Virus record (IMG/VR): IMGVR_UViG_3300047548_000676
Coordinates: 1-43,630 of that record
Direction: 5' to 3' (one strand)
Source of the DNA: a virus
DNA length: 43,630 nt
In this document: in pieces, positions 23,215 to 29,259 of the stretch
Layout of the letters: each line of letters opens with the position of its first letter
Numbering within the stretch: position 1 is the first letter of the stretch
Notes under the pieces: model-generated
Databases searched by the model: none
What the model saw: the letters and a program-made list of their open reading frames with translations, nothing else
What the model was told of the DNA's origin: nothing
Program-made: the position numbers and the translations under genes

Positions 23215-24714
23215 TCAACCGAACAGCCCGGCTACCCGCAAGATCTCCGATGGGGTATCAGTCTGCGGCGCCTGCCCGGCCTCGCGCAGCGCCTTTTCCT
23301 CCCGCGCCCGGTCGGCGTAGAAGTCCAGCATCGAGAAGTTGGTGCCCGTCAGCTCGTCAAAAGCGGTTGACAGGGCGTCGATCTGGTCGTCGTTTGCGCC
23401 GTTGGGGAAGTTGCGCATTTCCTCGATCAGGGGTTGATTCCAATCCCCGCGCACCATCAGCACGTTTCCCACGTTGACCTGGGCGGCAAATGGCCGTGCC
23501 CGCTGCACCTTGTCGCCGGTGACGGGCTTGCTGCTGACCGGGTAGCCGGACAGTAGCCGGGTCAGCGCACGCACCTGCGACTTTCCCGCTTGGCCGGGGT
23601 CTTGGGGAATCGCTACCCCGGTCAGGTTGCCGTCGCGGGTAGCCGTGGCTTTCATGATGGCCTCGACCCCCTCCGGGGATTCGCGCACGCGCTCCATGCC
23701 GCCGATGACGTAGCGGCCCTCGGGCGTGACACCCAGCAACCCGCCAGCGGTCCAGTCGCCGCCGTCTTTGGTTCCGGCCAAGTCCCAGCCGCGCACCCAG
23801 CGCACATTGGCCGGGGCCGCGTCGATCACCTCGATCTTGCCGGGCTTGAACTCCCCGCCTGCCAAGGGGGCCGGGCGCTGCTGGTACTGGCCAGCGAAAA
23901 CATACGGGTTCGCCTGTTCCATGATGCGGAGCTGGTCAATCGTGTGCTTGGCCGGCCACAGGGCCGAGCCGTCAGGCTGGATCGCCTCGATGCACAGGTG
24001 TTCCCACTTTTCCCCGTTGCCGCCGGCCAGAAGGAACCCGGCCAGGTCGGATTCATGCAGGCGCTGCATGATGAGGATGATGGGGGTCTTGGCCGGGTCG
24101 TTCTTTCGGCTTTCGAGTGTGTTGCCGAACCACTCGATGACGTTCTTGCGCATGGTGTCGCTGCGCGCTTCGTCGGCCTTGTGCGGGTCGTCGATGATGA
24201 TGGCGCCGCCGAAGCCGGTGCGCATCTTGCCGGCACCGAAGCCGGTGATGGTTCCGCCCGAGCCTTGGGCGTAAACGACCCCGCCCGCCGTGGTTTTCCA
24301 GTGGTCTTTGGCCCTGCTGTCGTCCCGGATGGCGACCTGGGGAAAAACAAACCGGAAGAAGTCGCTGCGGACTAGATCGCGGATTTCGGCGGCGTTCTCG
24401 GTGGCGAGTGTGCTGCTGTAGCTGGTGTGGATGAACTCGCTGTCCGGGTTGTGCCCGAGCGACCAAGCGATAAAGTTCTTGACCGCCAACTCGGTCTTTG
24501 AGTACCGGGGCGGCACATTGATGATGAGCCGGGTGGTTTCGCCGTTGAACACTCGCTCAAGCGCATCGCAAATAACGCGATGGTGCCAGTTGTGCGCCCA
24601 TCGGAACCCTTTGCGCTCGTAGAAGCTCGACCGGCTGAAGGCGTAGAGGCTCTGCCGGCTCAGGTCTTGCAGCGCCTTACGGTCGCTTGGGTCGGTGAGG
24701 TTGCGCAACAGCAT
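23215..24714 (-). CDS. terL: Terminase large subunit (packaging ATPase/nuclease)
   Basis: 499 aa. ATPase: Walker A NVPPRYSKTE (residues ~66-75, with RYSKT replacing the classic GKS/T signature), Walker B GGAIIIDDPHK (~165-175), and the coupling-type LIMQRLHESDL. Nuclease: RGWDLAGTKDGGDWT (first acidic site) and NDDQIDALSTAFDEL near the C-terminus (last acidic cluster). It drives DNA into proheads through the portal and cuts concatemers. It overlaps the terS stop by 1 bp (TAATG). Length is normal for the family. Confidence 0.95.
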   Translation of the reverse strand: MLLRNLTDPSDRKALQDLSRQSLYAFSRSSFYERKGFRWAHNWHHRVICDALERVFNGETTRLIINVPPRYSKTELAVKNFIAWSLGHNPDSEFIHTSYSSTLATENAAEIRDLVRSDFFRFVFPQVAIRDDSRAKDHWKTTAGGVVYAQGSGGTITGFGAGKMRTGFGGAIIIDDPHKADEARSDTMRKNVIEWFGNTLESRKNDPAKTPIILIMQRLHESDLAGFLLAGGNGEKWEHLCIEAIQPDGSALWPAKHTIDQLRIMEQANPYVFAGQYQQRPAPLAGGEFKPGKIEVIDAAPANVRWVRGWDLAGTKDGGDWTAGGLLGVTPEGRYVIGGMERVRESPEGVEAIMKATATRDGNLTGVAIPQDPGQAGKSQVRALTRLLSGYPVSSKPVTGDKVQRARPFAAQVNVGNVLMVRGDWNQPLIEEMRNFPNGANDDQIDALSTAFDELTGTNFSMLDFYADRAREEKALREAGQAPQTDTPSEILRVAGLFG

Positions 24715-25274
24715 TAGATGATGCTTGCGATGCGCCTTAGTGCCGCCTGGTATTCCTCCAAGCTGCCGGCGACAGTTTCAACCGGCCCGCCGTCCGGGTT
24801 GCTGACCCCGGTGTTCTCGGTGGTTGCACCAAGGGCCAGGCGGACGACCTTCTGAATCTCGGCAGCCGCGCCTGCAAGCTGGCGGATTTCAACCGGGCGG
24901 AGCGGCTTCGCGTTCTGCGCGGCGCTGTTAATGGCCGCCACCACTTGGCCGCGCAACGCCTTTGCCACCCGCAAGTCCGCGTCGTTTTGCTGCGCCAACT
25001 CCTCCGCTCGTTTGGCCTCGATCTTTTCGTTGGCGGCCCTTCCGACCGCTTCCGACGCATCCCGACGCAGCTTTGCCCATCCCTCGCGCTCACATCGCTT
25101 CTCGACCGCCTCCGGCGTGACCCCGAACTCCTTTGCTACCTGGGCGAGCGTTTTGTTGCTGTGGAGGTAGGCCAAGCGGATGGGGTTCCAATCCGGGCGC
25201 GGTTTTTCCGCTTGCGCATCTGCTACCGTTGTGGTAGCATATGTTTCATCGTGTTTTTTGTTGGAGTGCTTCAT
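24714..25274 (-). CDS. terS: Terminase small subunit-like protein
   Basis: 186 aa from the ATG at 25274 (TTG at 25295 has no better site). Residues ~35-70 hold a helix-turn-helix (RLAYLHSNKTLAQVAKEFGV) as in phage small terminases that recognise the packaging site. The rest is helical with an Ala-rich oligomerisation region. Codons for ATTTVA near the N-terminus coincide with the dyad operator at 25221-25239. The start codon shares the CATG tetranucleotide with the oppositely oriented gene at 25273. Confidence 0.82.
   Translation of the reverse strand: MKHSNKKHDETYATTTVADAQAEKPRPDWNPIRLAYLHSNKTLAQVAKEFGVTPEAVEKRCEREGWAKLRRDASEAVGRAANEKIEAKRAEELAQQNDADLRVAKALRGQVVAAINSAAQNAKPLRPVEIRQLAGAAAEIQKVVRLALGATTENTGVSNPDGGPVETVAGSLEEYQAALRRIASII
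25212..25240 (+). promoter_or_regulatory. Early promoter with repressor-type dyad (site 1)
   Basis: TTGCGC (25212-25217), 17-bp spacer, TAGCAT (25235-25240). The perfect dyad TGCTACC-GTTGT-GGTAGCA (25221-25239) fills the space between -35 and -10. It drives the plus-strand gene at 25273 and lies inside the terS coding region. The dyad is the best copy of a motif found at four more early promoters. Confidence 0.7.
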
Positions 25275-25542
25275 GTGTGACACCAAAGTTTCCAAGGTTC
25301 GCGCCGCAATGGCTGCTGGTCATTGGCATGAGGCGATCCGCTTGGCTGCTCGGTTCCCGCGTTTAGGCGTTCACCGCTCCGACATTCTTGATGCCCATAC
25401 CGCCATCACCAACCCGCGCTGGACTGTCGGGCTGGGCCGGTCGGTCGAGGCTGATGTGTTGCGGGGCCGTCGCGCATTGGTGGCCGCCTACGGGCAAGCG
25501 CCCGCGTCGAAGTGCCCCGATGCTGCAGCTGCTGGCGTCTAG
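25273..25542 (+). CDS. Small conserved phage protein (89 aa)
   Basis: The ATG at 25273 follows TTGGAG. Product: MCDTKVSKVRAAMAAGHWHE then FPRLGVHRSDILDAHTAITNPR ... ALVAAYGQAPAS. The first ~75 residues fit a short helical phage protein family of unknown function that I recognise by its KVRAAMAAG and IxxAHxAIxNPR pattern. It is alone on the plus strand among late genes, has its own dyad-containing promoter, and its last ~180 bp are antisense to speD. Confidence 0.75.
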   Translation: MCDTKVSKVRAAMAAGHWHEAIRLAARFPRLGVHRSDILDAHTAITNPRWTVGLGRSVEADVLRGRRALVAAYGQAPASKCPDAAAAGV

Positions 25543-25830
25543 GGCGCCCAAGAGGTGGTTGATGGCGGCGTCCGGGTCGCCTTCGTCGCCGCAGGTGTAG
25601 CAATCGACGCTGATATACCCGTATTCCGGATAAGTGTGCAACGTGAAATGGCTTTCGGCAAGTATCCAGACTGCGGTTGTCCCGTGCGGCTCGAACCGCT
25701 TGGTTGTGCACGCGACGACCGTCATCTTGCTGTGCCGGATGGCCCGCTCACACGCATTCAAGACGGCATCGTCGCCGGGGTAGGCGCGCAGCAATGCGTC
25801 AGCGTAAACGTGGCGGCCTGCGTAGTTCAT
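25363..25830 (-). CDS. speD: S-adenosylmethionine decarboxylase proenzyme (SpeD-like)
   Basis: 155 aa; residues 1-~105 align with bacterial class 1B SpeD: GRHVYAD at the N-terminus, AESHFTLHTYPEYGYISVDC, then YTCG. The self-cleaving/pyruvoyl Ser60 (E-S-H), His65 and Cys80 keep the exact 5- and 15-residue spacing of characterised enzymes. It would convert SAM to decarboxylated SAM, the aminopropyl donor. No spermidine synthase is in the window. Start overlaps the upstream ParB/methyltransferase stop (ATGA), so the two are co-translated. The last ~50 residues leave the SpeD domain and are encoded antisense to the neighbouring plus-strand gene. A pyruvoyl amino-acid decarboxylase activity is the main alternative. 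Confidence 0.9.
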   Translation of the reverse strand: MNYAGRHVYADALLRAYPGDDAVLNACERAIRHSKMTVVACTTKRFEPHGTTAVWILAESHFTLHTYPEYGYISVDCYTCGDEGDPDAAINHLLGALDASSCSIGALRRGRLPVGGHQCATAPQHISLDRPAQPDSPARVGDGGMGIKNVGAVNA

Positions 25831-27275
25831 TTGTCGTCCTCGCGGTCGGGGTGCATGAAAGCCAGAACGTCCTCGGCCTCCACCTCGCCGAAGTTGCTGG
25901 GGATGGTTTTCGGGTCGCCTTTGTAGAAGACCAGAATGTCGTCGTGAAGCCGGATTGTCCTGGCGCGCTCGGCAAGGTCGAAGCCTTCTGTCGCCAGTAT
26001 TTCGTCGCCGAACTCCCCGCCCTTAAAAAACACCATCACCTCTTGGTGCGTCCGGGCCACCTTCCGGTTTTTCATGTAGTTGCCGGCCCGCATGCTGGCG
26101 CTGCCGACCGCGTTAAGCAGGATGATTTCGTTGTAAATATGCAACCCGTTGCGGCGCATGATGCTTCGTATGTCGCCGCAAATGTCCTGATAGAAGCCGC
26201 GCCGGTCGCGCACGTTGCTCATCACCACCACTGCGAACCTGTTTGGCTTGAGCGCCTTGGCGGCTCCCGTGAACGCCGTGTCAAGAATCTTTAGGAAATC
26301 GGAGTAGCTGCCTTGGTTGCTGGCGTCCCGTGGGTCGCTGCTGTAGACCTCCAAGTCGAAATAGGGTGGGCAACTGAAAAACAGGTCTTGGCTGTTGGGG
26401 GCGAAATGAAGGCCCGCGTTCTGCCCGTCGTCGTTGATGTAATGGGCCGGCAACTTCGCGTCTTGCACACGCTTGTTGTTGAGTGCTGCTTGCTCTTTTC
26501 GCAGTTCGATGCCTGCGAACTGTCGCCCCAGCATCCCGGCCACAAAACCGAACACTGTGTCGCCCGCGAATGTGTCGAACGCCCTTCCCCCCTTTGGGCT
26601 GAACCAACGAACCACGACCTCGGCCATGACGGGATCGAGAATGCTGACCGTTCCGATTTCGGCCATCTTCTGGCTGGCTTCGGTGTTGCCGGCCTTGAAT
26701 AGCGTTTCCTCGCGGCTTTCCCCGTTGTCGCCGATGACCTCCAGCCATTTGCGCTTTCGCTCTTGCCAGTAGCCCTGGCGGGTATCGAAAACGCTGAAAG
26801 GTGGAATGCCGAACCTTTCGCCCAAGAAGCCGGGCATATCCGGGCCGTCGTCATCGCCTTCTTTGACCTCTGGCATCAGATCGGCAAGCTCGTCATCGGT
26901 GAAGCCCAGCAAGGCAAGGTCGAAACCATCCTCGGCCAGGGTTTGAATTTCGACGGCCAACATTTCCTCGTCCCACCCTGCGTTCAGTGCCAGGCGGTTG
27001 TCAGCGATCACATAGGCCCGCCGCTGCGCGTCCGTCAGCCCGTGCAGGGTGATGGTGGGCACCTCGGGCAGCTTCAACTGCTGCGACGCCAGGACGCGCC
27101 CGTGGCCCGCGATGATCGTGCCCTCCTCGTCCACCAGGACGGGGTTGGTGAATCCGAACTCTCGGATGCTGGCCGCAATCTGGGCGACCTGTTCCGCGCT
27201 GTGGGTGCGGCTGTTCCGGGCATACGGGATCAGCTCGTCCGTTCGCAGGTAGGTGATTTTCAGGGGGTTGGTCAT
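25827..27275 (-). CDS. ParB-N / DNA methyltransferase-fold protein (482 aa)
   Basis: Start at the ATG at 27275 with GAGGAATCC upstream. Residues ~5-130: ParB/sulfiredoxin-like domain (TDELIPYARNSRTHS, GHGR at 57-60, VIADNRLALNAGWDEE). Residues ~210-470: DNA-modification methyltransferase fold with motif I variant FDTFAGDTVFG (233-243), the acidic motif II FAGIEL (E257) and motif IV SCPPYF (301-306), then VVMSNVRDRRGFYQD and a THQEVMVFFKG strand. Motif IV SxPPY is typical of amino-group (N4/N6) base modifiers. It is first in the minus-strand late direction and is coupled to speD. It probably modifies phage DNA; whether it uses SAM or decarboxylated SAM is open. Confidence 0.88.
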   Translation of the reverse strand: MTNPLKITYLRTDELIPYARNSRTHSAEQVAQIAASIREFGFTNPVLVDEEGTIIAGHGRVLASQQLKLPEVPTITLHGLTDAQRRAYVIADNRLALNAGWDEEMLAVEIQTLAEDGFDLALLGFTDDELADLMPEVKEGDDDGPDMPGFLGERFGIPPFSVFDTRQGYWQERKRKWLEVIGDNGESREETLFKAGNTEASQKMAEIGTVSILDPVMAEVVVRWFSPKGGRAFDTFAGDTVFGFVAGMLGRQFAGIELRKEQAALNNKRVQDAKLPAHYINDDGQNAGLHFAPNSQDLFFSCPPYFDLEVYSSDPRDASNQGSYSDFLKILDTAFTGAAKALKPNRFAVVVMSNVRDRRGFYQDICGDIRSIMRRNGLHIYNEIILLNAVGSASMRAGNYMKNRKVARTHQEVMVFFKGGEFGDEILATEGFDLAERARTIRLHDDILVFYKGDPKTIPSNFGEVEAEDVLAFMHPDREDDK

Positions 27276-28304: not shown

Positions 28305-28963
28305 GCGCATACCAATGCAGCGAAGAGCGCGTACTTAAAGACCTGGCCAGCCACGAAATGCAGGTCATCCGTGATGAGGGCGTTCACCGTCATATCCGCT
28401 TCAAACGGCCCGACAGCGGCAGCTACTGGTTCGACCTAATCACATGGCCGGGCACGCTGTGCATCGACGGCGACTGCGGCACCTATGTGTTTCGCCGCCT
28501 GGACGACATGTTTGAGTTCTTCCGCACCGACCGCGAGTACCTCGAACGCAAAGGTTGCCAGCTCGCTATCAACCCGGGTTACTGGGGCGAGAAGCTGCAA
28601 TCGATCTCGAAGTTTGGGGAGGGCTTCAAAGAGTTCAGCGAGCAGCGCTTTCGCGACGCCGTGAAAGAAGAGTTCGATGCATGGGTTGAATCGGATGATC
28701 CAACCGATGATGCCAAGGCCGCGCTATGGGAAGAGCTGGAGGACCGCGTGTTGTCTTGCGCAAGCGACGGTCATATCCGGGCTGTCGACGCCGCAATCGC
28801 TTTTGAGCCGGACGACGGCGAGGTGATGTTTGAAATGCGCGACTTCTGGGAACACCGCCTTGAGGACTACACCTTCCATTTCATCTGGTGCTGCTACGCC
28901 ATCGCATGGGGAATCAAGAAGTACGACGAAGTCATGCAACTCGCACTGAAGGAGGCCGCATGA
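28301..28963 (+). CDS. Conserved phage early protein (220 aa)
   Basis: MSAYQCSEERVLKDLASHEM ... PDSGSYWFDLITWPGTLCID ... CGTYVFRRLDDMFEFFR, then a long acidic helical C-terminus ending MQLALKEAA. I recognise it as a recurrent phage early protein of unknown function. It is soluble and acidic (many Asp/Glu). Coupled on both sides by ATGA overlaps, so it is part of one early operon. No catalytic motif visible. Confidence 0.8.
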   Translation: MSAYQCSEERVLKDLASHEMQVIRDEGVHRHIRFKRPDSGSYWFDLITWPGTLCIDGDCGTYVFRRLDDMFEFFRTDREYLERKGCQLAINPGYWGEKLQSISKFGEGFKEFSEQRFRDAVKEEFDAWVESDDPTDDAKAALWEELEDRVLSCASDGHIRAVDAAIAFEPDDGEVMFEMRDFWEHRLEDYTFHFIWCCYAIAWGIKKYDEVMQLALKEAA

Positions 28964-29259
28964 GCAACCTGCACCCCGTCATGGCCAAAGCCCTCAAGCC
29001 GTTCGCGCCCAAGTCCTACCTGGCCGAGGTTCCGCACCGAATCCAAGGCATCCCCTGCCTGATCGGCGTCACGTACTACGAGTGCGTCCGGGGCAGCTAC
29101 TCGCGCAACGCCGCCAGCGACCTGGACTTTTACGGCTACAGCGAAAGCGAGTGGGAGGTGTTAGACCAGCGTGGCCGGCCCGCCCCCTGGCTCGAACGCA
29201 AGCTGACCGACGACGACCGCAGCGACATCGAAGCTGCAATTGCCAAACACATGGAGTGA
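28960..29259 (+). CDS. Hypothetical early protein (99 aa)
   Basis: The start at 28960 overlaps the previous stop (ATGA) and has GGAGG upstream. MSNLHPVMAKALKPFAPKSY ... GSYSRNAASDLDFYGYSESE ... AIAKHME; a small alpha/beta protein without recognised domain. Gene packing and ribosome site support it. Confidence 0.75.
   Translation: MSNLHPVMAKALKPFAPKSYLAEVPHRIQGIPCLIGVTYYECVRGSYSRNAASDLDFYGYSESEWEVLDQRGRPAPWLERKLTDDDRSDIEAAIAKHME

Follow-up and report, generated by a model that had tools for sequence, protein, structure and literature searches.

We think it likely that the SpeD encoded by a phage genome analysed here feeds decarboxylated S-adenosylmethionine (dcSAM) to a protein of phage DNA methyltransferase (MTase) descent that acts as a DNA aminopropyltransferase; the cationic bases so formed would resist restriction. 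The two genes lie side by side in the window, by which we mean the whole stretch of DNA that was analysed, a 43,630-nt viral record (IMG/VR record IMGVR_UViG_3300047548_000676, positions 1 to 43,630). The initial annotation of this DNA had proposed at its core that the phage makes dcSAM for its own MTase-like protein, and this pairing of SpeD, dcSAM and MTase is strongly supported at the level of sequence, by the co-variation of SpeD with motif I of the MTase and by the missing speE; the published S-adenosylmethionine (SAM) decarboxylase (AdoMetDC) activity of a related SpeD, that of phage P2559S, and a proposed equivalence of residues with spermidine synthase also back it.

A ParB-N methyltransferase gene overlaps speD

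The features of the window on which the analysis draws are as follows.

25827..27275, minus strand: ParB-N plus N4/N6-type DNA MTase-like protein, proposed DNA aminopropyltransferase, 482 aa, ATG at 27275 (phrog_498, Pfam)
26886..27275, minus strand: ParB-N-like N-terminal domain of the MTase, residues ~1-130 (Pfam, PHROG, AF2 pLDDT)
26715..26735, minus strand: MTase residues 181-187, IGDNGES, which lie ahead of motif I (alignment contrast of SpeD-linked and SpeD-less MTases)
26544..26576, minus strand: MTase motif I, residues 234-244, DTFAGDTVFGF, the glycine-rich loop of the cofactor pocket
26559..26561, minus strand: codon of MTase Asp239, the diagnostic acid (Gly in SpeD-less relatives)
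26550..26552, minus strand: codon of MTase Phe242, the diagnostic non-basic residue (in SpeD-less MTases, Arg in relatives and Lys within the same clade)
26361..26375, minus strand: MTase motif IV, SCPPY, residues 301-305, the catalytic motif of amino-methyltransferases
25827..25830, minus strand: ATGA overlap of the MTase stop and the SpeD start, coupling both genes
25363..25830, minus strand: SpeD, SAM decarboxylase class 1b, 155 aa (TIGR03330, AdoMet_dc, 1TLU alignment)
25591..25653, minus strand: catalytic stretch of SpeD with Ser60 (pyruvoyl site), His65, Pro68 and Cys80
24714..25295, minus strand: small terminase-like protein, the next gene downstream of SpeD (PHROG)
23215..24714, minus strand: terminase large subunit (Pfam, PHROG, NCBIfam)

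The initial annotation had described a ParB-N protein with a methyltransferase fold whose stop overlaps the start of a SpeD with intact Ser60, His65 and Cys80, in a window lacking a spermidine synthase, and each part of this description holds. The ATGA is read at 25827-25830, the first protein matches phrog_498 and Pfam N6_N4_Mtase with motifs I and IV read directly, and the SpeD residues are in register with those of 1TLU; neither the MTase nor the rest of the window matches PF01564, the spermidine synthase family profile. The pair is not a product of chance, because the same overlapping order is found again in Pseudomonas phage ZRG1, in Croceibacter phage P2559S and in viral contigs and prophages numbering in the dozens.

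Elsewhere in the window, positions 28888-29259 encode a protein with a Pfam YuA_Gp49 domain, which hints at kinship to YuA-like phages. Thymidine hypermodification occurs in some YuA-like phages; no genes for it were found among the scanned right-arm proteins of the window.

SpeD has the residues of a SAM decarboxylase

The window SpeD scores 94.1 bits against TIGR03330, the curated SAM decarboxylase equivalog of NCBIfam (cut-off 75.65), and 90.2 bits against Pfam AdoMet_dc. When it is aligned to the Thermotoga maritima AdoMetDC 1TLU, a class 1b enzyme, Ser60, His65 and Cys80 fall in register; the two proteins have all catalytic residues and homology over the whole domain in common and differ in gene context. 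Cassette SpeDs in general retain the Ser/His/Cys set (88/88), and 87/88 also retain a Pro diagnostic of AdoMetDC, a residue reported to be conserved among true AdoMetDCs but not among arginine decarboxylases (PMC10407285); we take it to be the Pro of HTxPE, which is Pro68 in the window SpeD. Experimental evidence comes from Croceibacter phage P2559S, whose SpeD restores spermidine in an Escherichia coli speD mutant carrying speE (PMC9992855). The main text of that report leaves methyltransferases unmentioned; the P2559S speD gene overlaps a cassette-type MTase.

Judged by these residues and by the P2559S enzyme, the cassette SpeD is very probably a SAM decarboxylase that has not been re-purposed. 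The initial annotation had listed as an alternative that SpeD acts as an ornithine or arginine decarboxylase, with putrescine or agmatine being put on DNA or used free, and to this we assign only a very small probability. Phage phiW-14, which has putrescinyl-thymine in its DNA, counts in favour of such a route. So do the re-purposed SpeDs that are known in phages (PMC10407285). Against it stand the near-universal retention of the AdoMetDC Pro and the activity of the P2559S enzyme, and an amino acid decarboxylase would leave unexplained the changes in the SAM loop of the MTase that are described below.

Cassette SpeDs come in a long form (TCG) and a short form (SSC), most being of the shortened form (IELSSC), which has no C-terminal part. 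In the window SpeD the conserved domain reaches to residue ~112 and is followed by an unconserved tail, of which the final ~43 residues (25363-25495) are missing in relatives.

The partner is a DNA methyltransferase homologue with an altered motif I

The window MTase matches the PHROG DNA methyltransferase family phrog_498 with E=6e-146 and Pfam N6_N4_Mtase with E=5e-10 (40.2 bits, cut-off 26.7); its match to Pfam ParB_N (E=1.6e-5) lies, at 25.3 bits, slightly below the cut-off of 26.3. It resembles the ParB-N/N6-N4 DNA methyltransferases of phrog_498 in domain order, in motif IV and in sequence, the best full-length matches having 42-52% identity. Motif IV, S/T/D/N-x-PPY, is present as SCPPY at residues 301-305, and S/TCPPY is found in 87/88 SpeD-linked MTases, the remaining one having SCPPF. 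Motif I, in contrast, reads GDTVFG in place of the SAM-binding GGSVRG that is canonical for the family, Asp239 and Phe242 replacing Gly and Arg. Canonical phrog_498 members differ from the window MTase in this motif and in their surroundings, SpeD accompanying 0/62 non-redundant MTases of the canonical clade.

An AF2 model of the window MTase has a mean pLDDT of 82.8, with values >90 over most of residues 11-130. In the model, residues 235-240 form the loop that follows beta1, so that residue 239 lies in the beta1-alphaA loop, and residue 242 sits in the first turn of alphaA, the helix next to that loop. A Foldseek search with the model returned as best matches only generic class I methyltransferase folds.

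The cassette is widespread and lacks speE

In a tblastn search of annotated phages, the MTase has its two best matches in ZRG1 (63%) and P2559S (41%), and in both phages SpeD overlaps the MTase stop in the same gene order as in the window. The pair is also present in the closest viral contig (L003) and in a contig with a SpeD relative (L083). An initial viral scan with the window SpeD alone returned two relatives, and alignments were used thereafter; scanning IMG/VR, in which the viral records are mostly partial, and 85,000 bacterial and archaeal genomes yielded well over a hundred further copies, among them prophages in Bacteroidota, Bacillota, Alphaproteobacteria, Lentisphaerota and others; one isolate with a prophage copy is Hymenobacter sp. 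M29. After removal of redundancy, SpeD lies directly downstream of 88 MTases in phages and prophages of several phyla. In almost all copies no more than a few tens of bases separate the SpeD start from the MTase stop. Conversely, the MTase is present at 71 of the 80 viral SpeD loci nearest to the cassette type.

The initial annotation had also asked how often this MTase family adjoins speD and not speE. Besides the 88 non-redundant pairs, a PF01564 search, run alongside positive controls, covered 37 viral records that carry either the cassette or a related SpeD, and speE was absent from all of them. Among 19 genomes with a cassette prophage, eight have no PF01564 match at all and two more have sub-threshold matches only; of the isolates, Dysgonomonas sp. 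PF1-14 has no match, and Phocaeicola coprocola DSM 17136 and Spirosoma spitsbergense DSM 19989 have sub-threshold matches only. The remaining hosts possess a spermidine synthase. Since the former hosts have no PF01564 match above threshold, a role of SpeD in making spermidine through host SpeE is unlikely in them.

These observations bear on a simpler reading, in which the MTase is an ordinary SAM-dependent enzyme and SpeD, as an auxiliary metabolic gene in its own right, boosts spermidine via host spermidine synthase. Phage SpeDs are able to supply E. coli SpeE (PMC9992855), and speD is common in phages, mainly in cyanophages, with relatives of the MTase in annotated phages occurring mostly in other phages. 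We nevertheless regard this reading as improbable: several hosts lack a spermidine synthase domain above cut-off, and it explains neither the constant overlapping order of the two genes nor the tie of SpeD to two residues in the cofactor loop of the MTase.

SpeD accompanies a two-residue signature in motif I

That tie emerged from comparing SpeD-linked with SpeD-less MTases. In a first sample, position 239 was Asp in 73/73 SpeD-linked MTases and Gly in 61/61 SpeD-less ones, and position 242 was Phe in 70/73 SpeD-linked MTases (Gly or Ile in the others) and Arg in 61/61 SpeD-less ones. Upstream of motif I, position 183 was Asp in 71/73 SpeD-linked MTases and mostly Lys, Gln, Asn or Arg in relatives. 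We define the signature as an acid at 239 together with no base at 242 in motif I (FxG-D-x-x-F). The early scan patterns contained motif I, which favoured the Asp type; a rescan with patterns outside motif I exposed SpeD-less lineages with Lys242 and with Gly239.

The combined set comprised 166 MTases after removal of redundancy at 85%. Among these, SpeD accompanies 88/91 MTases with Asp239 and a non-basic residue at 242, and 0/72 of those without the signature, whether canonical (GGSVRG) or reversed to Lys242 or Gly239. The same holds within the SpeD clade, where SpeD accompanies 0/10 MTases without the signature (Lys242, 0/6; Gly or Arg at 239, 0/4; Fisher test within the clade, p=1.5e-11 with relatedness ignored), and no SpeD was found anywhere in the partial records of these Lys242 and Gly239/Arg239 MTases. 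The three signature MTases for which the partial records hold no SpeD (L307, L361 and L341) may use host dcSAM, or SpeD may have been lost.

Two kinds of departure from the signature can be read within the SpeD clade. Seven SpeD-less MTases (L146, L349, L330, L326, L335, L337 and L356) keep Asp239 and have Lys242 (GDT[QYLM]KG), and this subgroup has probably gone back to SAM or taken up another cofactor. In four others (L344, L342, L347 and L338), also SpeD-less, motif I is shortened by one residue (FSGG[AS]FGF), and the acid is lost. As separate observations on gene content, a PP-loop ATPase-like gene (AFIAFSGGKDCLAAA; L330:5664-6812) lies directly 3' of one Lys242 MTase, in the place of SpeD, and could be another nucleotide-modifying partner, and a cytosine-C5-methyltransferase-like gene split across two overlapping frames (L125:6817-7948) comes after a SpeD-clade MTase that has neither SpeD nor Asp239.

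The counts overstate independence, since the clade carrying signature and SpeD has essentially one origin. When the motif I columns are left out of the MTase tree, six changes are required for the signature and eight for SpeD, four of each being forced by well-supported branches. Across the four supported independent contrasts in the signature, SpeD changes in the same direction in 3.9 on average and never in the opposite one; a sign test on four contrasts cannot reach 0.05, and the direction is uniform. The correlation thus reads, in the sequences, as a single main switch and a small number of reversals, SpeD being lost where the acid has disappeared or a base has been acquired. The long and short SpeD forms require eight switches on the best MTase tree, two of them forced by supported branches, and this distribution suggests that SpeD has been swapped between cassettes while the association persisted.

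The signature positions probably correspond to cofactor-determining positions of spermidine synthase

Within the GGGDGG loop of spermidine synthase, Asp103 makes a salt bridge to the amine of dcSAM and is believed to keep out SAM by repelling its carboxylate; the D103I substitution abolishes aminopropyl transfer and confers weak SAM-dependent methyl transfer, which rises strongly when Q79T and V106T are added (PMC3725402). From the motif register (FxGxG in amino-MTases, which places 239 and 242 in the window MTase) we infer that D103/V106 and D239/F242 match each other as positions x and x+3 in the GxG[x]G loop. The second place is hydrophobic in dcSAM users, namely Val in spermidine synthase and Phe in the window MTase as a proposed dcSAM user, whereas SAM users have a polar or basic residue, Thr (putrescine N-methyltransferase) or Arg/Lys (the SpeD-less MTases). 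An HHalign comparison of the MTase profile with spermidine synthases from host genomes, using a profile that held one synthase sequence only, was not significant. The SpeD/SpeE pair is alike in having a SpeD to make dcSAM and, by motif register, a Rossmann-fold partner with an Asp in motif I and a hydrophobic residue at +3; it differs in its acceptor, putrescine, the partner here being of the DNA N4/N6-MTase family with S/TCPPY and ParB-N and presumably acting on DNA.

The main rival to aminopropyl transfer is that the MTase moves the methyl group from dcSAM, SpeD serving mainly to drain SAM against host SAM-dependent defences, as phage SAM lyases do, and the MTase having become adapted to dcSAM. 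The methyl group is still present on dcSAM, so that this reading predicts identical co-variation, and phages are known to deplete SAM (mentioned in PMC12783734). We consider it unlikely all the same: in spermidine synthase the Asp orients the aminopropyl chain for transfer, and methyl transfer becomes possible only once this Asp is removed (PMC3725402); draining SAM would not by itself call for a coupled MTase in almost all of the phages.

A further order of events would have the MTase add a 3-amino-3-carboxypropyl group from SAM and SpeD then decarboxylate the DNA adduct. The microcin C proteins MccD and MccE, an MTase-fold enzyme and a decarboxylase that jointly add an aminopropyl group, provide a precedent (PMC10491745); they differ from the present pair in that the acceptor is a peptide-nucleotide phosphate, the decarboxylase is PLP-dependent and the order of steps is different or unsettled. 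The acid in the loop that binds methionine would be expected to work against the SAM carboxylate, and P2559S SpeD acts on free SAM in cells; we therefore think this order highly improbable.

A proposed DNA aminopropyltransferase and its precedents

In the mechanism that we favour, aminopropyl transfer from dcSAM, SpeD would convert SAM to dcSAM, and the donor for the coupled MTase-fold protein would be dcSAM in place of SAM. The bare amine of dcSAM would be held by Asp239 of the motif I loop, a residue that would also exclude the carboxylate of SAM, for which the lack of a base at 242 would have removed the anchor. The aminopropyl chain would then be aimed at the exocyclic amino group of a flipped base held by S/TCPPY, a motif that implies N4 of C or N6 of A as the target, with methylthioadenosine as by-product. 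The predicted product is N4-aminopropyl-C or N6-aminopropyl-A, and the phage DNA would carry aminopropylated, positively charged bases resistant to host restriction. Binding of dcSAM, aminopropyl transfer, the DNA target, the identity of the base and the anti-restriction role are all proposed, the last being assumed as the usual reason for such modifications.

The closest precedent is the CmoA/CmoX pair of Synechococcus phage S-B43, with which the use of a phage-made SAM derivative by a DNA methyltransferase homologue was shown in December 2025 (PMC12783734). Both are phage pairs of a SAM-derivative maker and a DNA methyltransferase homologue, which in CmoX uses only that derivative, and in both a charged residue of the pocket has changed (Arg350 in CmoX, for the added carboxylate). 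CmoA/CmoX differs in using carboxy-SAM, a non-homologous cofactor maker and a cytosine-C5 MTase with an acidic product, carboxymethylcytosine, whereas the present pair combines SpeD with an S/TCPPY amino-MTase and a predicted basic product and has no recurring further-modifying ligase. The principle is thus already known, and the predicted chemistry is new; the open-licence literature searched held no report of DNA aminopropylation, or of speD beside a DNA methylase in phages as a system. On balance these MTases probably represent the first family of DNA, or nucleic-acid, aminopropyltransferases, through which phages of several bacterial phyla have swapped methylation for aminopropylation from dcSAM in one switch with reversals, at the loop positions used by spermidine synthase. 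If so, they would add to the natural DNA bases a chemically new class, cationic and bearing a primary amine, and use dcSAM outside polyamines, and they would offer a clean evolutionary case of two residues governing a cofactor switch. The amine would be a handle for DNA labelling and could defeat many restriction enzymes.

A role in neutralising charge for packaging, which the initial annotation had suggested and found to fit the neighbouring terminase, is not borne out, as SpeD-less relatives adjoin terminase about as often as SpeD-linked MTases do: with a limited set of terminase queries, a terminase was detectable <=3 kb downstream in 21/60 SpeD-linked and 22/50 canonical SpeD-less cases. 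A recurring partner enzyme or ligase for further modification was sought around the cassettes and none was found. In ZRG1, a putative nucleotide modification protein of the Nmad5 family is encoded a few genes downstream of the cassette (L001:24041-24640).
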